Shown piece by piece: positions 2,410 to 63,153 of a stretch of DNA of 64,000 bases. A program made the translations under genes and the position numbers. The stretch spans positions 17,692,001 through 17,756,000 of the forward strand of contig NC_060110.1 in the NCBI RefSeq assembly GCF_021155765.1. Reading direction: 5' to 3'. Numbering within the stretch: position 1 is the first letter of the stretch; each line of letters opens with the position of its first letter. The notes beneath the pieces were generated by a model. The model was not told the origin of the DNA. It made no database searches and worked only from the letters and a program-made list of their open reading frames with translations. The DNA is from Diprion similis. Lineage: Eukaryota > Arthropoda > Insecta > Hymenoptera > Diprionidae.

Positions 2410-5400
2410 ATGCGAAGCAAACGATGGACAGGATTCTTCATGGTTGCAATCACCATTTTTGTTGGTAAGTTTACGACCATCTGTAAGGCATCGTTTAGCC
2501 TGCTAAAGAAATGAAGCTTTTAAGATTCTCAAAAACTCATTATGTGCAGTTGCAAATAAATTATTGGGTAAAATATTACACACAAAAAACATATCATATT
2601 CGTATTGAATTGACATTTACCCTTAAAATACGGCATAATGAAAAACCATGAAAAGACGGCGAGTAGACCGCCAAGAAATTCTGTTGAAACACGATTCACC
2701 TGCATTTGGGTTTAGCCAACTGTTTTGCGAATATATAGTTACGAATGCATAATATCTTGATATGAAATTAAGTAAGAGTTCGTGAAAGAAAAAATTGATC
2801 GATACAATAAATATTACGTATCCGATACGTAATATCTGGTAAGTTCATGCACCTCTTAGTATAGGCTTACAACAAAATGCAATAATCGGTGTTGCAATAT
2901 TGTAATTGTCATTTTTTGTAATTATCAACATTTCAATAACTGTTTTAATACAGATGTTTTTGTTGTTTCACGTTAGAAAACATTTTGCTTCCGCATGGTA
3001 AAAATAGTTACACACACACGCACACGTATGTATACATATTTTTAATATTTTTAAAATAAACGTTTACCTTCTGAACATAATATTAAAGCATAAATATTAC
3101 ACGTTCGAAAAACAATAATATTTTGAACTGAAAAAATAATTCATTGTAATCATATACTGTTTTTACGCAATACATATATTAGGGTTATTTTTTTTCGACT
3201 ATTTTTTTTTCAGTCCCCACCTAAAGTTTTGTTGGATATGTCGAACCAAAAATTGCCTGAGAGTTATAGCCCTTAATATTAATATTAAGTACTTTCCCTG
3301 GGCGTGAAAAGATATTGTCATATTGCAATATTTAATAGTTTAATGATACCCATTTTTCTTTTGCCCAATTTTCATTGAACTATTGTGATTTTCTATTGTG
3401 ATCACATATTGCTCTTATAAAACTACTTTTGATACTGACTGTCGTAAATCCATACGGTAGAAAGATATTCTTATTCCTAGTAATACTATAATGATATTTT
3501 AAAGATTCAAGCGAGAAGCGATAGTATAAATTTAAAGGATTGTTATTGATGTTAAATTTATTCTTATTTACAATTTTTAATAGTTTATTCTGATGTTTTT
3601 CCAAAAGATTTAAGCAATTAGAGTATGGTATGGAAAAATGCATAATACAGCATCATCAATGTTTCAGTTATTATAATCTTGGAGAGCTTATGAAATAACC
3701 GTTAAATATTTTGTTGTGTTTTGAATGTATTCAATATGCTTATCGCATTTCATTTTGCAGTCAAATTTAACTCCCAAGTTCCTACATGTTTCAACTCTAC
3801 TTAAGATTTACCCGTTATCTGAGATATTTAAGTTTACCAGAACGCTAGTGCAGTGGTAACCAAAGGTCATATAAACAGTTTTGTCAATAATTAATGATAG
3901 CTTATTTAACGCCTATATAAAGCCAGCCATTGATAACAAAGTCAAGAAAAAATTCTGAGAAGTCCCGGCATATTTCAAGCGAAGCATATTAAGTGACTTG
4001 AAGTATAAAGTCTATAAAAGTTGAAATTTTTTAACGTTGTATTAATTGTGATCCTCAGGATGCATGGGAAAAAAGGAAAACAACGTCACCAAGTCGGAAC
4101 TAAAGCAGTTGACGGAAGAACTTTATGGCAATGAAGATCGGAACTTTCAATCTCATGTTGAGATCAATTTTCAGGGCAAATTGACGAAGAGGAAATTCAG
4201 CGACGTTGCGCCCCAACCGTAAGACAATTGTGGCTCATCTAATCCATAAAATCCAGATGTAGATTTAATAATTATCTCAGACATTCAATGTTCTTGAGAG
4301 CATGTTGTAAAAATATTATTGTTATTATGATGTGGCGATTACCGCTCTAGCGTTGAAAATCTTGTAGTAATACTAGAATCAATTCTGCACTAGATGACAG
4401 ATAACCAAAGACATGCATATGATTTCGGCATATAGGTTGTTAGCCGTGGATGACGAGATTCTTGAAAATCCAGTAGTAAAAAGCCTTCGCAAGTTGTTCG
4501 ACAATTACGAAATGGATACGAGTAAAATGGAGAATGTAACCCCTGAGGAAAGAGGGGAAGAAGAAAGGTTTCTGGACGCTTTACTCGAGACTCCCTCGAT
4601 TAATCGTACGATGAACTTCTTGTCCGATCATGGCCTTTTCGGAAATGGCAATCGCACATACAGAGAAATACTTAAGCATGTTTGGTTCTATCAGTATCCA
4701 AGACATCAAAGAATCAATGTAGCTACAAGTTCAGCGTTCGAGCATATTTTTTGCGGGGAATTGAAAAATGGCAGACAATTAATAGGTTTTCACAATTGGG
4801 TATCTTTCAACAATGCCGAGAGGTCTGGTGACATGGAATACTGGGGATACAGATGGAAGAGGTCCTTGGCAAATGTGAGTTAAACTGTGATTGTAAGACA
4901 GACGTCGATGGATTCATTATGTTATAAGTGTGAAAATGGTGGCTAACAACTTCACTGCACTTTTTAGAAATTCTATCATGGACCAGAAATGTGAATTTCA
5001 AACGCTCAATGCTTCATTCTTCGAAAACTGAACCAGGAAGTGTACAGTTAGCACTAATACATCAATCTTCTTCTTGGTTTTTTTTTTCTTTTGTTTTCTT
5101 GATAACTCTATTACCTGCACCGAGTGTGTAATAACTTATTTTGCGGTGCATAAGTATCATAGGTATATACATACATAAAGTCATGGTCAATTCAAACGAA
5201 CCATTCATTACATCGGTGATACCGATTTGTAATTATTGTGAAATCCGTAGACGGAATTTTTTATTTTCATGGACAAGCATTTTGTTTTTGTGTACTTTGG
5301 TTTAAAAGATTTCCGGTAGGACGAGTCGTGTGAGTCGGTAAAGTCTCCGATGACGATCACGAATTCATTTAGCGCGCGATGGAGATCGTGATTACACAAG

Positions 5401-27100: not shown

Positions 27101-30100
27101 TCTGAACAAAAAGAGTGCCGAGATAATGGTAATATAAGTTGTTTGCCGATGAAAATGAGTGAGTTATTACACCGAGGGCTCGACGGGATCAAAATCCAAT
27201 CACAGACGGACTTTGCACGATTTACAATGAAAACGATTATGAAGTTTTCTTTTATTCATTATATTTTCATGTTTCTTACTATAAAGTTGGCGCTTTTATT
27301 TTATTTTTTTCCTAGTTGTTTGAGAGCGCGATATTACAGCGTGTAATGAATCGTGCAATCGCCATCCGTCCGATGGTCAATATTTCGCAAGACTCGAGAT
27401 TGCAAAGGGGTGGGCAAGCGATCGCTTGAGAAATAAGGATAAAAGGAGTTAAAAACGATTCGAGTGAACGTCACTTGACCCGAAACTCCTGACTTTATTA
27501 CTCGCATGTTTTTTTCATCATCCTTGTCTTCGTATTGTTATTTATGTCTTACGATGAAAAATATTTATCGTTTGGTTACAGGTCGTCGCAGTGCACGTTG
27601 ATCCAACAGTATTCGATTCCTACTACAATGGGTGCTGCAATGGCACTTTTTGGCCACTGTTTCACTCCATGCCCGACCGGGCAACTTTTATTGCTGATCA
27701 TTGGCGTGCTTATGCCACCGTCAATCAGGAGTTTGCTGCTCAGACCGTAAGTCCTTCGATCTGTTAAATCACCCTTAGCTCTAAACACAGGTAAACAATG
27801 AATATCTGCAATTCAACAATCTAGTGTCAGTCAAACGGTTACGTATTCGTCAGTAGAAAACCGTTTTATGCCTGGTTTTATGTCCTCTACATCTCTCTTT
27901 AACATTTGTTTGGCGTTTGGTTCTCCGACTCTACATTGTACCCTTGATTGTTTTATTTGTTTTGTTTGTTCTGTAATCCAATTTCACGACGTGAAACTCA
28001 TTTGTTCAGGTTAACGCGCTTGAAAAAATTCACAAAGAACAATCAGGGCAACCTAATGGAACACCTTTGGTCTGGGTCCACGACTATCACTTGATGCTGG
28101 CCGCAAATTGGATCAGACAGTCCGCTGAAGATAAAAATCTCAGGTTGAAATTGGGATTCTTTCTTCATATTCCATTCCCGCCTTGGGATATTTTCAGGCT
28201 ATTTCCATGGGCTGATGAAATACTCCAAGGAATGCTTGGTAAGAATGATTCACAAAATGACTTTTATTCTGTTGGATTCGATTGAAAGACATCAAATCTG
28301 AACTGAAATGTAATTTCGACCTCGTAAATCTATTGGTTTTTCAAATTTCCTTCACTTAGGCTGTGATATGGTCGGTTTCCACATCCAGGACTACTGTTTA
28401 AACTTCGTCGACTGCTGTCAAAGGAGTCTCGGCTGTCGCGTCGACCGCAAAAATCTTCTCGTCGAACATGGTGGCCGAACAGTTCGTGTGAGACCTCTGC
28501 CGATCGGAATCCCCTTCGACAGATTCGTTGCTTTATCCGAAAGTGCGCCCAAGGTTATGCTTACCAACCAAAAAATAGTCCTGGGTGTCGATCGTCTCGA
28601 TTACACCAAGGGGTTGGTGCACAGGTTGAAAGCCTTCGAGATGCTATTGGAAAAACATCCTCAGCACAGAGAGCAGGTATGAACAATCGCATGAGTACAA
28701 TCTGAAACGAAATTTTGTGCAACAATTATCATTTACACCGCGGTTTCACGCAGGTAACCATGCTTCAAATCGCTGTCCCATCGAGAACGGACGTGCGCGA
28801 ATACCAGGACTTGAAACTCGAAATGGATCAACTGGTGGGCCGTATCAACGGTCGATTCACGACACCAAATTGGTCGCCAATTCGATATATATATGGATGC
28901 GTTAGCCAAGAAGAATTGGCCGCTTTTTACAGGGAAGCCGCGGTTGCACTGGTCACACCTTTGCGCGACGGTATGAATCTTGTGGCAAAAGAATTTGTCG
29001 CCTGTCAAATCAAGGTGCCTCCGGGTGTCTTGATCGTTTCACCCTTCGCTGGTGCTGGTGAAATGATGCACGAAGCTCTCATCTGCAATCCCTACGAAAT
29101 CGACGAGGCGGCTGAGGTGATACACAGGTAAGTTAAAATGTCCCTTATAACCATGGATTTCAATTGAAGTTGAGAAGCGAAGCGCGGTACCAGTCTCGTT
29201 GACACCCCTGAAAATTGCACATTACTTATTGTTGATTCGGCATATTTATTTTGAATTTTGTTTGTGTTTAACGTGTGTCGTTTACAAATTTTTATCTTTG
29301 TATTATAGAGATACATATATTTTTTATATAACACAATGACGATGAAAGTGATTTTCAGAGCTCTGACGATGCCGGAAGACGAACGTACCCTTCGTATGAA
29401 TCATCTTCGTCGTCGGGAGAGAATCTACGATGTTAATTACTGGATGAAGTCGTTCCTTCAGGTGATGGGATCCCTGGAAGAGAGAGACGCCGTAGGTGCG
29501 ACTACCATGCATCCAGTTACCATGGACGACTTCGATGACTATTTGAGCAAGTAGGTACCACAGACAGGAGAATTGTGCATGACTGGGCCCAGCCAGCGCA
29601 TGTGCTAGAGGGCACACATATCTAACACTCCAAATTCAATGGAATGTTTATCCGACACTTTGTCGTTGTCGGTTTCGTCTCTTTGTCGCATAAATATTGT
29701 TCAATAACAAGATGAGGACTTTTGTCGATATGCATACGATTGATTGAGGATGATCTAAAGAGAAAACGAACGAATAGGAAGGGATTAAAATAATAATATA
29801 TATGTATTGCTTGAACGGTGGTATGGTAAGATTGATATTCAATTTCTAAATTCGTTTATCCTCATCTTTCTGTAGGGTAAAGAGCTGTGTTTTACTATCG
29901 TGAGATACATGTTTTTCATATACTCGTTTATCGAGATCCAGCTTTTTTGGGACTATGTATGAAAAAAAATTGAAAAACAAAACGCATGAGTTTGGGTACG
30001 TCACTGCGAAGGCAATGCCTACGCGGAGTCTTTTAAATTTCTCAGTTTAATGAGAGGTGCATGGTATCTCACCCGTATTTTGGGACCACTCGATGAGAAC

Positions 30101-50600: not shown

Positions 50601-51032
50601 ATCTAAAAATTAATAATTTCGTGTAATATAAAATGTAAAACGAGTGCAGAATGAGTGCGGTAGACAATAAAGTGCAACAAAAAGGTATATAAAAATATAT
50701 GCCAGTGATTGAGCATATTTTAAAAACAATTTAAAACTTCCTGTCCATTGAATAATGACATCAAATTGTACTCAGGCAGATCAGAGTTTCTAGATTCAAT
50801 TTAACTATTGAGAATATTGTTGTGCTAAATGCACAAAGTGCTATTCGACTAATGATTCACGGTTTTCATAAAATTGTGCGGCAGAGTTTGAAGTAGGAAC
50901 GAATGTAAGAATCACATTCGTAAAGGTAGTTCACAGATTCAGACCCATTACGTCACTCCATAGGTAAAGATATATAAAATTTCATACTGTAACAACAGTG
51001 AAGATTTACATAACGCACCGCATGTTTGAAAA

Positions 51033-52280
51033 ATGAGTTGTGTAACGAGCCATTTACAACGCGTAGTTACCTTGCGAGTATACATGATTGTTGCATTGGT
51101 TATTACACCAATGATTCTGCCATTTTTGTACGACAGAACACAATGTCAAAACGAGGTTCTGTATGGGTTCGAGTCAAGTTTGGAACGTAGAAATCACGTG
51201 GCACTGCTTACTATGGCGAAGAATGAAACAGACAAAAAACCGAAACTAGTGAATAAGAAAAAGACAGTTTTGTACTGGACGAAAATGTTTTCGAGTAAAA
51301 ATTTTCGCTTAAGTGTACACGACGAAAATCCTGACGTTTTTGCAAACTGTCCTGTCAGCTCTTGCATTGGAACAAGCGATCGGAATTATCAACCTGTCGA
51401 GGAATTCGACGCTCTACTGTTCCACGGTCCAGAATTAAACGCCAGAGATCTGCCAAAAACAAGATCACCAAATCAACGCTACATATTCGCGGATTTTGAG
51501 ACACAGGTCTTTCATCCGATACCGAAAAGATTAGAATTCAACAATTTTTTCAACTGGACAATGACTTACAGGAGAGATTCTGACATCATGCGGCCGCACG
51601 CTATGTTCAGGAAAATTAATAACAACGAACTGATCCCCCCCGAGATTCCTGCACAGTGGTTGAACGTCTCCGACGGCAACGTGTCCGAGTCTTCACGTCT
51701 CTTGTTCAAGAAGAAGTCGAAAATGGCCGCATGGTTCGTCTCTCATTGTTCGACGAACAGTAAGCGAGAGAACATCGTGAAGAAGTTGCAGAAATACGTG
51801 ACGGTTGACATTTATGGAACATGTGGTAAATTTGAATGTCCGAAATCCAAAGGAGACGAATGCTACGAGCAATTGGAAGAAGGATATTTCTTCTATCTGT
51901 CATTCGAGAACTCGTTGTGTCGTGATTATATCACGGAAAAAGTATACCGGATCCTAGACTACGACGTTATACCCGTCGTTTACGGTGGGACAGACTACGA
52001 AACTTTTCTTCCGCCGAATTCCTACATCAACTTACAGGACTTTCCCTCGATCGAGGCACTCGCCAATTTCCTTACGAAACTGAGTCAGGATGAGGAGAGG
52101 TATCTGAGCTACTTCAAGTGGAGAAATTTTTACAGAATGGTCACTGGGGATCCCCATGTTATCGCTTGCGAGTTTTGCAAAACCCTTCATGAGCCGAATA
52201 TGCCTCGACAGGTGATTGCCAACATATACGATTGGTGGGCTGGAGGATCGCAGTGTGTCCCACCACCTCAAATCAACTAA
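51033..52280 (+). CDS. Alpha-1,3-fucosyltransferase (GT10), copy A
   Basis: Intronless, 415 residues. It is a type II membrane protein with a short cytosolic tail (1-15), a membrane anchor at about 16-33, a variable stem, then a GT10 catalytic domain. Family blocks are KKTVLYWTKMF (76-86), ETQVFHP (136-142), NFFNWTMTYRRDSD (171-184) and the alpha-1,3-fucosyltransferase signature FENSLCRDYITEK (291-303), which lies in the GDP-fucose binding region. NWT (174) and NVS (211) are potential N-glycosylation sites. Enzymes of this family move fucose from GDP-fucose to N-acetylglucosamine of glycans in the Golgi. The insect FucTC-like group is the best guess; the acceptor (core or antennal GlcNAc) cannot be read from the sequence. 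A polyadenylation signal AATAAA lies at 53237-53242. Confidence 0.92.
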   Translation: MSCVTSHLQRVVTLRVYMIVALVITPMILPFLYDRTQCQNEVLYGFESSLERRNHVALLTMAKNETDKKPKLVNKKKTVLYWTKMFSSKNFRLSVHDENPDVFANCPVSSCIGTSDRNYQPVEEFDALLFHGPELNARDLPKTRSPNQRYIFADFETQVFHPIPKRLEFNNFFNWTMTYRRDSDIMRPHAMFRKINNNELIPPEIPAQWLNVSDGNVSESSRLLFKKKSKMAAWFVSHCSTNSKRENIVKKLQKYVTVDIYGTCGKFECPKSKGDECYEQLEEGYFFYLSFENSLCRDYITEKVYRILDYDVIPVVYGGTDYETFLPPNSYINLQDFPSIEALANFLTKLSQDEERYLSYFKWRNFYRMVTGDPHVIACEFCKTLHEPNMPRQVIANIYDWWAGGSQCVPPPQIN

Positions 52281-53983: not shown

Positions 53984-54449
53984 GTCTCAAAGGCAGTTTT
54001 CTCATAAACTTGAAATGTTATGAATACGGGCCTTGGAAGTGCAGAGTCAGTGACATAGGTGAGGAAGTGTAAGAAAAATATTGATGAAGAAATGTACCAG
54101 TGACGCAGCATATTTTTATAAATATTTGAAACCACCTCCCCGTTGACTAATCACATCAAGTTATAATCAGGCATATGAAAGTTCGTCAATCTAATTTAAA
54201 GATTAAGGATTTTGCTGTAATGTACATAATGCGATTGGGCTCATGATAAGGTTTTCGTAAAACTGTATGGCAGGTTTTAAAGTGGTGAAAATGTAACCGT
54301 TGCATTGTTACAGGTTATCTGCTTGAGCGACTGATTGATGTTTATTTATATCCAGTTTGTACGCTTCCATCAGTCTACCGGTAAAGATAGATAAGACTGT
54401 ACACCGTAATAATAGTTAATATTTACATGACGCATCGCGTGTTTTAAAA

Positions 54450-55697
54450 ATGAGTTGTGTAATGAATCATTTGCAGCGTGTAGTTACCTTCCGATTGTTC
54501 ACGATTGTTGTATTGTTGGTTGTACCCATGATTCTGGTATTTTTGTACGGCAGAACACATTGTCAATACGAGGCTCTGTATGGGTTTGAAACAAGTTTGG
54601 AACGTAGAACTCACGTGGCACCGCTTACTGTAATTAAGAATGAACCAGCCAAACCACCGGATCTAATAAAGAAGAAGAAGAAGACAATTTTGTACTGGAC
54701 AAAAATGTTTTCAAGTAAAAATTTTTACTTTAGTGAACGGGGAGAAGATGGTGACATTTTTGCAAACTGTCCTGTCAGCTTTTGCATGGGAACAAACGAT
54801 CGAAATTATCAACCTGTCGAGGAATACGACGCTCTTCTGTTCCACGGTCCGGAATTGAACGCGAGAGACCTGCCGAAAAGAAGATCACCAAATCAACGCT
54901 ACATTTTCATGGATTCGGAGACTCAGGTTTTCCACCCAGTACCGAACAGACCAGAATTCAACAATTTTTTCAACTGGACAATGGCCTACAGGAGAGACGC
55001 AGATATCATGAGGCCGTACGGGGTCTTCAGGAAACTTGGTACCAACGAGGTCATACCTCCCTACATTCCAGCACAATGGTTGAACGTCTCCGACGGCAAG
55101 GTGTCCGAGTCTACGCGTCTCTTGTTTAAAAAGAAGTCGAAAATGGCCGCGTGGTTCGTCTCTCATTGTGGGACGAACAGTAAGCGAGAGAACATTGCTG
55201 AAAAGTTGCAGAAATACATGACGGTTGACATTTATGGAAAGTGTGGTAAACTTCAGTGTTCGAGAGCCAATGAGGACGAATGCTACGAGCAATTGGAAGA
55301 AGGATATTTCTTCTATTTGTCATTCGAGAACTCGTTGTGTCGTGATTATATCACGGAAAAGGTTTACCGGATCCTAGACTACGACGTGATACCCATCGTT
55401 TACGGTGCGGTTGACTACGAAACATATCTACCGCCGAATTCCTACATCAACGTCATGGACTTTCCCTCGATCGAGGCACTCGCCAACTTCCTCACGGAGC
55501 TCAGTAAGGACGAGGAGAGGTATCTAAGCTACTTCAAATGGAAAAGTTTTTACAAAGTTGACACCAGAAAGCACTATATCGTTTGTGAGTTTTGCGAGGC
55601 CCTCCATGATCCGCATTTGCCGAAACAAGTTGTTGCCAACATATACGATTGGTGGGCTAAAGGATCGCAGTGTGTCCCACCTTTAGAAATTAATTAA
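54450..55697 (+). CDS. Alpha-1,3-fucosyltransferase (GT10), copy B
   Basis: Intronless, 415 residues, the same length as copy A and collinear with it along most of the protein. The membrane anchor is at about 16-33. The catalytic region keeps TILYWTKMF, ETQVFHPVP, NFFNWTMAYRRDAD and FENSLCRDYITEK. Differences cluster in the stem (residues 55-75), where a lysine-rich stretch replaces part of copy A, and near the C-terminus (360-395), where KVDTRKHYIV replaces the copy A sequence. The frame is intact with no stop, so both copies look functional. The upstream DNA also matches copy A back to about 500 bp. AATAAA at 56221-56226 is the likely polyadenylation signal and corresponds to that of copy A. 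The acceptor specificity could differ from copy A, but this cannot be judged here. Confidence 0.92.
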   Translation: MSCVMNHLQRVVTFRLFTIVVLLVVPMILVFLYGRTHCQYEALYGFETSLERRTHVAPLTVIKNEPAKPPDLIKKKKKTILYWTKMFSSKNFYFSERGEDGDIFANCPVSFCMGTNDRNYQPVEEYDALLFHGPELNARDLPKRRSPNQRYIFMDSETQVFHPVPNRPEFNNFFNWTMAYRRDADIMRPYGVFRKLGTNEVIPPYIPAQWLNVSDGKVSESTRLLFKKKSKMAAWFVSHCGTNSKRENIAEKLQKYMTVDIYGKCGKLQCSRANEDECYEQLEEGYFFYLSFENSLCRDYITEKVYRILDYDVIPIVYGAVDYETYLPPNSYINVMDFPSIEALANFLTELSKDEERYLSYFKWKSFYKVDTRKHYIVCEFCEALHDPHLPKQVVANIYDWWAKGSQCVPPLEIN

Positions 55698-56476: not shown

Positions 56477-57682
56477 TTATGGGATTCCTTGGAATTGAGG
56501 CTCGCGTAAGCACTGATTGGTTGTCCACCAACCGTAAACGTCATCTATTATCATGGGCGATTGATCGACTTCGTGCAATTTTTTACAAAGTTTGCAAATG
56601 GTATAATGTTCGGGTCTAAGTTCGACACTATAGTAATTTTTCCACTTGAAAAAGCTCAAATATCGCTCCGTGTTTTGGCTAACGGCCCAAAGGTAATCTG
56701 CCAGTGACTCAGGACTAGAAAAGTCCTGTATGTCAATGTAAGAACCGGGAGGTAACACGCTGGCATAATCGGCTGCTCCATAGACAACAGGTACAACATT
56801 ATACTGAAGGAATTTGAAAGCTTTTTCTGTTATATAGTCTCTGCAGAGAGAATTTTCCAGGGCAAGATAGAAGTAATAGTCTCTTTCAACCATCTCAAAA
56901 CAGTTGGTTTCCTCTGGATCACACTTGAGGGTTCCACAGTCCCCGAAAATGTCTATTGGTATGTGCTGTTTCAAGGCTTGCACGTAAAGTTCCCTTTTAC
57001 TGGAGGTAAAGCAGTTGGACACAAACCAAGAAACCATTTTTGTTTTTCCCTGTACCTTCAATCGGGTTTCCTCAGGAATGGTCCCCTCGGAAACATTCCT
57101 CCATGTAACTGGAATTTGAGGAGGCACGTACTCCATTATGTCGATCACTTTAACAACACCGTAGGGTCTCATCAGTGTCGAGTCTCTTCGGTAAGTCATT
57201 GTCCAATTGAAGAAGTTTCTGTATATCTGGTTATCTGGGATTGGGTGAAACACTTGAGTCTCCAAATTGAGGAATACGTAACGCTGATGGGGGGACCTTT
57301 GCTGCGGCAAGTCGTTAGCCTTGATATCTAATGCGTGGAATATGATCATGTCGAAATCTTGCACGTTCAGAGCTGTTCTGTTGTTCGTAGCGACGCACTT
57401 CCAGACGGCACATGAGGCGAAGATATCTCCGTCCCCAAAATCCATGTTGTCGCTTTCCCACATCTTCGTCCAGTACAAAATCGTCTTGGTGTTTGTCTCG
57501 TGGATGGAGGAGGCCGGTCTGTCGACGAGTCGCTCTTCCTGATGACGTGAGAATCTCACCTCCTTATCGCATAACCGTGTGTCGTTAATGTGTCTACCTA
57601 ATATCCAGAATGTAATCGCTGGAACTGATATCAGAAGAATCAGGAAGTATAATTTAACGGACACTCTTCGATTCAATGACAT
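56477..57682 (-). CDS. Alpha-1,3-fucosyltransferase (GT10), copy C, inverted
   Basis: Intronless, 401 residues from the ATG at 57682; the frame is open a little further upstream but without another ATG. Membrane anchor at about 9-28 (VKLYFLILLISVPAITFWIL). Catalytic blocks: TKTILYWTKMW, ETQVFHPIPD, NFFNWTMTYRRDS and LENSLCRDYITEK (275-287), where Leu replaces the Phe of copies A and B. It is clearly more diverged than A and B are from each other, so it is the older branch. It is convergent with copy B; the reverse AATAAA at 56280-56285 lies only about 55 bp past the signal of copy B. The function is as for copy A: a Golgi fucosyltransferase of unknown acceptor. Confidence 0.92.
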   Translation of the reverse strand: MSLNRRVSVKLYFLILLISVPAITFWILGRHINDTRLCDKEVRFSRHQEERLVDRPASSIHETNTKTILYWTKMWESDNMDFGDGDIFASCAVWKCVATNNRTALNVQDFDMIIFHALDIKANDLPQQRSPHQRYVFLNLETQVFHPIPDNQIYRNFFNWTMTYRRDSTLMRPYGVVKVIDIMEYVPPQIPVTWRNVSEGTIPEETRLKVQGKTKMVSWFVSNCFTSSKRELYVQALKQHIPIDIFGDCGTLKCDPEETNCFEMVERDYYFYLALENSLCRDYITEKAFKFLQYNVVPVVYGAADYASVLPPGSYIDIQDFSSPESLADYLWAVSQNTERYLSFFKWKNYYSVELRPEHYTICKLCKKLHEVDQSPMIIDDVYGWWTTNQCLREPQFQGIP

Positions 57683-57694
57683 GATTTCGCGCAC

Positions 57695-58261
57695 TTGATA
57701 TTCTTCGAATATTTGAAAAAGCGTGATTAGTTAAGTTTAAAAAACTCCAGCCTAGCGACAGGTACTACGTACATTTCATCTATAACGCGTGATTTTCAGT
57801 GGCTATTGTAACATTGCTAGCAGTCCACCGTGTCAAGCAGTCCAGTATTAGGTGGAGAGAATGCCTTAAAAAGTTTTCTTGTAATACAACAGCACACGGC
57901 CGCAGTGTGTTCCACGTGTGGGTAGTTTACTGAAATTGGTTGATACAGGTGTATATGTGTACACTGTAACGCTTGCCGAGATAATTTCCAGCACGTTCGC
58001 ATATATGCCTATCATTTCAAATTGGGCACCTTCTAACTGATAAGATATCATGGAGGCCAGGCATGATAATATGAGTAAATGCTGTCAATGACGAATCCCA
58101 CGTCGTATAATAAATCAATATATGAAGCACAAGTGCGTTCCAGACCAATTCAGTCGATATCTGCTAAATAAAACATAAGTTCATATACGTTCCAAAAATT
58201 ATGTTGCACAACTTTTGGAAAGGTGAAAAGACTTTTCTATATAAAAATTATTTGACATATA
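57695..58261. other. Upstream region of fucosyltransferase copy C
   Basis: No gene is supported. It should contain the minus-strand promoter of copy C, but I do not find the GATAAA/TCAGTCA block that copies A and B share. Confidence 0.4.
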
Positions 58262-60243: not shown

Positions 60244-63153
60244 TTAAGTCGTTGGTGGTTTCAGATAAGCGGCAGCTTCGCACGGAGAATCTTCGCAAGC
60301 AGTTTTGTCCGTAGTTTTCTTTTTCTGCTTCGCACCTCTGGACCGGCAGTTCTTGTGATCTGAATTGTCATCGTCTTCGAGGGGACAGTTGACTTTGCGC
60401 AGTTTTTTAAGTGGTTTGTGCCTAACTTTTTTTACAACCTTTTCCAGACACCTTGTCGGCCCTACGTCAATGGCGTTAGCAATTCGGATAGGATTAACAA
60501 CGAACTCGCTACATTCGGTAGAAGCGATGGTCAGCGTAAGGACGTGCATAAACTTGAGAAAGCACGTCGTTCTGATGAGATAAATCACGCCACCGCCATA
60601 TTGGAAGAGTGGTGGACCAGTCGAGTGAACGTCGCACATATAATAAGCACCGCAGAACTTGAAGACGCAAACGCAGGTGCTTTCACATGTCACAACACCG
60701 AACGGGTGCTCCAAGAACATGTCCTGCAGGGTAGCCCAAAGTGAGTTCGACGACTTGAGGTACAGACGACCCGTGACGCCGGGCATCAGGGTACCTTGAA
60801 ACATCGTCTCTCCGATTTTAACATTCTTCGTTAGATATCGGTCCCAGCTTTCGACGTCCGCATACTCCGGCCTCTTCGCTTTCAACTCCGCCTCGAGTGT
60901 GCTGATCGTGTAATACTTATCTCCGCACATCACTATCGCGTCAAGAGTCTTGGAACTCCAGTACTCCGGTGCGGTGATTCGCGTCATACCGGCGCAGACG
61001 ACGTAGCAGGCGTAGGTCTGTTTACCGCGGTGTTCAGCTGGGAAAAGTGCCTGAGTGGGGTGAATCTCACCCCATAAAGAGAATAGCTTGTAAGGTTCTT
61101 CGACGTAGAATTGGTGCCAGCGCAATTTTCCCGTAACCACATTTTCTCGAACCATTTTCTTCCTCGAACTCGGACAACGTATCCACGTAATTTTAAACTG
61201 CTTCAACCAGCAGGGATTCTCAGTTTTATCATCGTCTTCGGTTCTGTCGCACCAGTTTGCGGTGTCCAACGGGTCATACGGACAGACCTCGATTTGCTTT
61301 TGCACGATCGGGCGCATCATCGGTTTCGGTGCTTGACGCTCGAGCAGCTTGGTGTTTATCAACTCATACTTGTTATATATAACTTGGAATATCTGAACGG
61401 TAAATACGTCTTGCTTGGGCTCATCTTTCGCTGGCTCTCCTTTCCCTCCTGCATTGTCAACATCGCCTTCCTCGCCTGTTTTATTCTCACCAGCTGGTCC
61501 ACTGTCATCGGTTTTCACCTCCGGTTTTGGTACTTCGTAAACGTATGCCCTCAGCAATAGAATCATCAAGTGTCTTCTCAAAGCATCTCGACTGCAAAAC
61601 TTGACGATACAAGCATACCCGGAGTCATCCCAAAACCCAGTATCATTGCACCGGTATGGATTGTACAAATACCAGAACAAACCTTCTTTCCAGAAAGCAA
61701 GGCAATACCTAGCTGTTCTAAAAATGCAATTCTGATACTGAAAAGGTAACTTGTCAAACCATTTTTCAATTTCCTTAGTCCCCTTGTGAACCGGAGCTGT
61801 CTGTTGGTCTCGCGTTTTTTCAACTCCAATTTTACTCTCCACCTTGACAAAATCTTTTCGCTCGATTTCAGTCAGACGACCATGGTTGGACTCGACGTAA
61901 TCCCAGTCAACGTCACTGACACGTGGAACATCCTTCATCTCTTGGACTAATTCGATCCCAATGCAGTAAGTGTAATTGTAAACAGCAACCTCGTTAAGTT
62001 TCTGTATCCCAACGTGTTTCACATTGATATTACCCATGTGTGTAAAGAGGCTCCATCCTCTGTCGTAAATGTAATCGATATTACCACTCCAAGTGTACTT
62101 GTATCTCAACTGCGTTTTCACTAGAAGAGCAACAACTGCCTGATAAAAGCACCACTTCCAAGTCTTCTCGCGTATTCTCAGTACGTCTAACTCTGGCAGA
62201 TGCATTCCTGTCAGACCCCTTAGACAAACGTTTGCGTAAACTCTGTTGCCTTTTTTCTTTGAGACAATTTCAGTCAAGATGTAATCCCCGCTGACCAAAC
62301 CGTGATTCGGACCAACGGCTCTATCAACCATTGGAGGATTCGCTCTCGGCGACGGACACGTCGGAGGGATTCTAGCGTGCCAAAGTTCCTTGTGAGTGGC
62401 GAAGTCATCCTTCGGTTCAGGGGACGCATTGTCTTCCGGTTCCGACTCAACGCACCGTTCTCCAAACTTCCTCTTCTTTTTTGAAAGGTCAGATTTTGAG
62501 TCTGGTTTTTTACACGGCCAAGATCCCGGCCAGTGGCCACTATCCGTTTTTGATACTACCGGTGCTTCGTCGGGAACGAAGCAGCTCATGTCAACCTGCA
62601 TCGTGGGACGCGTTCATTGTCAAGCCATCCGAAAAGGTGAATAGAAACCTTCTCTCTATACGAAAGTGATTCCGAAGTTACTTACTGGAGGATTGTCACG
62701 CATTCTGTCCCATACTTGAACTTTTTCTTCAGGCTTCAGTCGATTTGGAAGTTTTGTTCTCTGACCTTGATTGAACACGTTTATCGGGTATCCTTTAGGA
62801 ATGACTTCCTCTTCTGACTCCACAAAAGGTAGGTTGGGTAGATCTGCAGGTTGCCTCAAGTTTAGTTTGTCCTTCGCTTCCAATTCTTTTTCCTTTTTCA
62901 TGTAACTGTAATTTAACATTGACGTGATAAAATTCTATATCTATTTTCACCTGACGTACCGCAGTTTAAATGAAACTGTACGTGAAACATAGTAGTGGAC
63001 AAAAAATAGATATTATAGTGTGAAATGATACTTCAAGCTGGGGAAATTGGTCAACACGTACGTATTTATATACAGTCTCCATAAGTCGTCATCGGGTTCC
63101 CGAATTTTTTCCTTCTTCTTTTCGACATTTTCGTCTTTCTCTGGGTCACTCAT
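60244..63153 (-). CDS. Uncharacterised 887-residue protein with two degenerate cysteine-protease-like modules
   Basis: Three minus-strand exons (63153-63062, 62905-62686, 62595-60244) join in phase. The ATG is in a good context (GTGAACATGA), and the long exon really begins with GTTGACATGAGC after CAG, not at the ATG three codons upstream. The N-terminus (1-170) is acidic and Lys-rich. Two similar regions follow, about 243-453 and 610-800. Shared pattern: W..(N/T)(I/L)D.I...G (YTWSGNIDYIYDRG at 271; EYWSSKTLDAIVMCGDKYY at 648), then an aromatic strand (FWKEGLFWYLYNPY at 405; FKFCGAYYMCDVHS at 749). They are joined by a Gly/Asp/Lys-rich linker (462-500); the C-terminus is basic. The RGKQ-then-cysteine and D.H.. 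positions recall ubiquitin-specific cysteine proteases of the C76 kind. Module 2 keeps DVHS but has Thr after RGKQ; module 1 has neither. I infer a pseudoenzyme; no function is known to me. The gene model is firm, the fold is a guess. Confidence 0.85.

Follow-up and report, generated by a model that had tools for sequence, protein, structure and literature searches.

A gene on the minus strand of a 64,000-nucleotide window (the whole stretch analysed; positions 17,692,001 to 17,756,000 of contig NC_060110.1) of the hymenopteran Diprion similis encodes a protein with two modules that, by sequence profile, belong to the VTD (viral tegument-like) family. Judged on its sequence, the gene is a new member of an already described kind, the insect inactive VTDs (iVTDs), and both of its modules are predicted to be inactive as enzymes. 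A large group of such proteins, located outside transposons and many of them multi-copy, was described in 2022 (PMC9741609). The profile match to a known VTD structure, taken together with these insect proteins, places the gene in this known kind and not among the ubiquitin-specific proteases (USPs).

The 887-residue product proposed in the initial annotation was confirmed by a sound frame, read from the window as three minus-strand exons with ordinary splice signals. Exon 1 (63062..63153) carries the start codon at 63153-63151 and an open frame running to a GT donor, and exon 2 (62686..62905) keeps the frame between an AG acceptor and a GT donor, both as predicted from sequence. Exon 3 (60244..62595) encodes residues 105-887, including both modules, and ends in a stop codon at 60244-60246. 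PolyA-like signals lie beyond the stop, ATTAAA at 28 bases and AATAAA at 122 and 155 bases.

The same genome (269 Mb in 60 contigs, labelled C1, C4, C6 and so on, the window being C6:17692001-17756000) was searched in six frames with exon 3. Long open frames turned up at two further loci, one on C1 (1825 codons) and one on C8 (1316 codons), and reading around the latter revealed a second frame of 1248 codons just upstream. A module profile seeded from 12 modules (seven from C1, three and one from the C8 frames, termed C8a and C8b, and one from the window) returned 16 modules: seven in the C1 frame, three and four in the two C8 frames, and two in the window protein, named W_1 and W_2; one further C8b stretch, at E 1.2, was dropped. 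The repeat is present at both paralogous loci with seven modules each, in an uninterrupted frame at C1:1638195-1643669 on the minus strand (L006) and in two adjacent frames at C8:13870167-13877785 on the plus strand (L008). The C8 frames, read by eye, probably belong to a single spliced gene whose first exon lies upstream and ends in RGLQ. When the C1 frame and the two C8 frames were used as queries, one further locus appeared at E<=0.01, on C10, and weak places elsewhere in the genome were C7:2074258 (E 0.09) and C11:4355833 (E 0.65). Contig C1 starts with repeats of TTAGG, the telomere repeat of insects and other arthropods.

Module 1 of the window protein spans residues ~205-455 (61543..62295, minus strand; boundaries approximate) and module 2 residues ~585-845 (60373..61155, minus strand). 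A profile from which the window modules had been left out recovered module 1 at E 1.1e-9 (38.2 bits, against 8.5 bits for the best shuffle), module 2 at E 3.3e-33, and the structure 8ADD at E 3.2e-13. A structure search covering 177635 distinct PDB sequences pointed the same way: with an alignment of 11 modules, one of them from the window, the sole match at E<=10 was 8ADD (E 2.5e-11), and with all 16 modules the matches were 8ADD (2.8e-12), 8ADB (0.072) and an RNA helicase (0.42), the last regarded as chance. A phmmer comparison of exon 3 with the PDB gave a single match, to interleukin 3 (E 0.57), also considered fortuitous. 8ADD is DrT1-VTD2, a deubiquitinase of a zebrafish Helitron, and 8ADB is a ubiquitin-bound VTD from Waddlia (PMC9741609); the match to 8ADD is significant across most of its 213-residue chain. 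These profiles establish both window modules as members of the VTD family at the sequence level, a membership that goes via the family profile, since module 2 alone reached only E 0.1 against 8ADD. By homology, both modules would adopt a papain-like alpha/beta fold. The view that the protein holds duplicated, degenerate, papain-like modules of deubiquitinase type, built around a Cys box and an Asp-x-His box and each of them an incomplete module, was upheld through this match.

The repeat had been reported as directly visible within the protein, and this did not hold: BLASTP of module 1 against module 2 gave no match at E<=1, and a two-sequence MAFFT alignment of them was out of register, so that the repeat is demonstrated only via relatives. 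Both tryptophans (W273 and W650) of the proposed motif W..(N/T)(I/L)D.I...G are present; a literal search with it catches module 1 only, which reads W-SG-NID, whereas module 2 reads W-SSK-TLD and is longer by one residue. Across the modules, conservation is highest in columns that form core-like motifs, W....LD.I..GD and YY.DP among them.

The suggested assignment to the USPs (C19) had to be abandoned. No USP or UCH model in Pfam matched exon 3 or any of the 16 modules at E<=10, with the HMMER filters dropping most Pfam matches above ~0.1. The Pfam family Herpes_teg_N (PF04843, peptidase family C76) reached E 0.094 for one of the 16 modules, as the sixth of 17 weak families, and adds little because it ranks below five unrelated-looking ones. 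This faint match sets the modules apart from the herpesvirus large tegument deubiquitinase, which shares with them the wider VTD family and the Asp-x-His arrangement (PMC9741609). USPs share the papain-like fold class with VTDs, and Asp-x-His is described as a VTD signature, unlike typical deubiquitinases (PMC9741609). PF04843 found no match in the D. similis genome itself, but as the 14 control genomes were equally silent, the result does not prove absence; among viral contigs there were no confirmed relatives of module 2 or of the 8ADD segment. The literature search found no paper connecting peptidase C76 with insects.

Each window module has kept a different part of the active site. In module 2, Thr631 (61015..61017), following RGKQ, replaces the catalytic Cys, and Asp759-Val-His761 (60625..60633), within DVHS, keeps the Asp-x-His box, both as first noted. 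Module 1 had been said to have lost both boxes, which is correct for Asp-x-His, replaced by Asn416-Pro-Tyr418 (61654..61662), and incorrect for the nucleophile, since alignment with 8ADD puts Cys253 (62149..62151) at that position; the residue before it is Trp (KWC-FY), not Gln. Across the family, the nucleophile Cys occurs in three of 16 modules (W_1, C8b_1 and C8b_3; one module has a gap there), the catalytic Asp in 11 and the His in one, W_2, and the complete Cys and Asp-x-His triad in none. The 8ADD segment used has Asp-x-His one residue closer to the Cys than in the published numbering, and it is the same box as in the PDB profile alignment. Tyr replaces His in each of the three Cys-keeping modules. 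A second Cys, two residues beyond the former His position (e.g. DPYxC), is seen in these three and also in C1_2 and C8a_2. Single replacement of Cys322, Asp451 or His453, through which DrT1-VTD2 cleaves K48 di-ubiquitin, abolished its activity each time (PMC9741609); as neither W_1 nor W_2 has the full triad, both are predicted to be inactive.

In a module tree of 17 rows, with long branches and nine of 14 inner branches left open, W_1, C8b_1 and C8b_3, that is all the Cys-keeping modules, form one group (support 99/98), which does not separate C8b_3 from C8b_1 as the nearer relative of W_1, and W_2 pairs with C8b_4 (95/88). The order W_1-W_2 fits C8b_3-C8b_4, and the window pair therefore seems to have been copied as a block instead of arising by fresh duplication of a single module. 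Complementary residues are retained within one protein, Cys253 in module 1 and Asp759 and His761 in module 2, which might be taken to mean that the modules share one swapped, composite active site. Such an enzyme is hardly credible: in the C8 pair, C8b_3 retains the Cys while C8b_4 reads Asp-x-Arg, which means that the complement is not maintained, and the Trp ahead of Cys253 also argues against it.

The same genome holds remnants of decayed VTDs. At C10:2052818-2053321 (L011, L035, L036) lies a broken VTD in which one frame retains the HQG and KQC boxes and a different frame retains DAHSR. Its C-terminal piece matches the 16-module profile at E 9.3e-17 and module 2 at E 2.6e-7, and its short Cys-box piece reaches 0.075 with the 16-module profile and 2.6e-5 with 8ADD. 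By eye, C1_4 (NQG) and C1_6 (HQA) retain the Gln where this relic has its HQG box. At a distance of about 6-7 kb on this strand, one Helitron Rep-like frame matches Helitron_like_N over its residues 5-41 (E 6.1e-11), and further matches, with stops, occur at C10:2045987-2046424 (E 1.6e-8 and 1.8e-19). Between the relic and Helitron_like_N lies, by eye, a nested LTR retroelement with a zinc knuckle (E 2.1e-5) and weak aspartyl-protease matches. Used as a query, the C-terminal piece of the C10 relic returned 11 places at E<=0.01: its own locus, a single stretch within the C1 frame, and nine further places, eight of which carry stops within the match; decayed VTD-like copies (L038-L046) are located on C4, C7, C1, C5 and C9. 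Eight of the nine places had loci, seven of these were realigned, and the Asp-x-His box was covered at four, where it is kept in three and reads DSY in one. With the C10 relic included, four of five relics keep Asp-x-His, in contrast to one of 16 gene modules. In pattern searches of nine relic loci (C10 included) for the Cys box, HQG..QC turned up at C10 alone, and one other locus, L045, showed a bare KQC.

These relics support, without proving, the derivation of the family from Helitron-borne VTD deubiquitinases, and the domain of the window gene was probably taken long ago from transposons. Their presence might also suggest that the window gene is itself a decaying transposon fragment or a pseudogene, a very unlikely explanation given that its 887-codon spliced frame is intact and that the gene loci lack the broken frame of the C10 relic and the stops of the eight others. 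Moreover, Helitron_like_N has at least 27 matches in the genome, and among the matches listed none is on C8 or on C6, the window's contig, and none on C1 lies within 14 Mb of the C1 gene.

The genes fit the published iVTD group in having lost active-site residues and in having several copies outside a transposon context. Like the insect iVTD proteins, the window protein has several VTD domains, no transposon and at least one active-site residue lost (PMC9741609). Five Drosophila iVTDs, CG32436, CG939, CG4669, CG14402 and CG32462, are listed, with copy numbers of 5, 3, 2, 1 and 1 among them, and all are testis-specific (PMC9741609). CG4669 has two copies, as does the window protein, whereas the paralogous loci, with seven modules each, exceed the Drosophila maximum of five. 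CG32436 appears in a selection-test table in a study of sperm-precedence candidates (PMC2864193). No paper joining VTD to cryo-electron microscopy of the Drosophila sperm axoneme was found in the literature search.

We lean towards the explanation that the window gene encodes a domesticated, non-catalytic scaffold of the male germline, by analogy with these relatives. A Helitron-borne VTD deubiquitinase would have been domesticated into a host gene with two inactive VTD domains, in which the fold may survive as a binding or building module, the protein acting without cutting. The scaffold would act in developing male germ cells, a site suggested by the testis-specific expression of the Drosophila genes, and would link partners that may or may not be ubiquitin-tagged. 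Several observations weigh against parts of this account. Module 1 gives weak matches: with the seven C1 modules as the profile, no more than its C-terminal part is picked up (25.9 bits, E 5.5e-6), and it is absent from the matches to a profile made of module 2 and C8b_4. Single-sequence AlphaFold2 models of the two modules have pLDDT values of only 34.5 and 36.0. The putative Helitron descent is founded on the published account (PMC9741609) and on similarity. Finally, the position of Glu377, an acidic residue which helps DrT1-VTD2 to hold the ubiquitin tail (PMC9741609), is His in module 1 and a gap in module 2, which argues against the window protein binding ubiquitin in the ordinary way.

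The last point bears on the proposal that the modules, with their ubiquitin site preserved, serve in tandem to read K48 ubiquitin chains, which they would shield or deliver in spermatids. In its favour, four of the ten modules with a letter at the Glu377 position are acidic there (C1_3, C1_4, C1_5 and C8a_2), in a gap-rich stretch; neither window module is among them. Nor is there evident conservation of Phe398 and the Pro-Ala-Leu loop residues in the window modules, although VTD enzymes too show poor conservation of this loop region (PMC9741609), and we consider such readers rather unlikely. As the residues of the ubiquitin site are not evidently kept, a structural or ubiquitin-independent role is at least as likely as ubiquitin reading. 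The modules may be repeats with a purely structural task in the sperm tail or elsewhere in the architecture of the sperm, retaining the fold and leaving ubiquitin unbound, a tentative idea that agrees with the seven modules at each of two loci and with the loss of catalytic residues while core-like motifs are best kept; the gene's tie to sperm comes from its Drosophila relatives only. A broader and frankly speculative scheme, to which we give little credence, is that domesticated Helitron deubiquitinases became multivalent, non-enzymatic readers of ubiquitin or ubiquitin-like proteins in the insect male germline, the sublineage of W_1, C8b_1 and C8b_3 having kept its Cys, with Tyr for His, for a new, non-hydrolytic use such as covalent trapping, redox chemistry or sperm disulfide linkage.

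Elsewhere in the window, three family 10 fucosyltransferase genes, each with one long open frame, are clustered at 51030-52280 (plus), 54420-55697 (plus) and 56477-57730 (minus). Open stretches at 4398-4883 (plus) and 28706-29131 (plus) match XendoU endoribonuclease and family 20 glycosyltransferase, respectively.

An unnamed insect gene is now placed in a family with testis-specific Drosophila members. Within a single genome one sees what is likely the kind of source, in the form of a decaying VTD that has catalytic motifs and lies next to a Helitron frame, together with the product, three loci with two, seven and seven inactive modules. If the favoured scaffold interpretation is true, deubiquitinases of transposons would have become parts of sperm development without enzyme activity.
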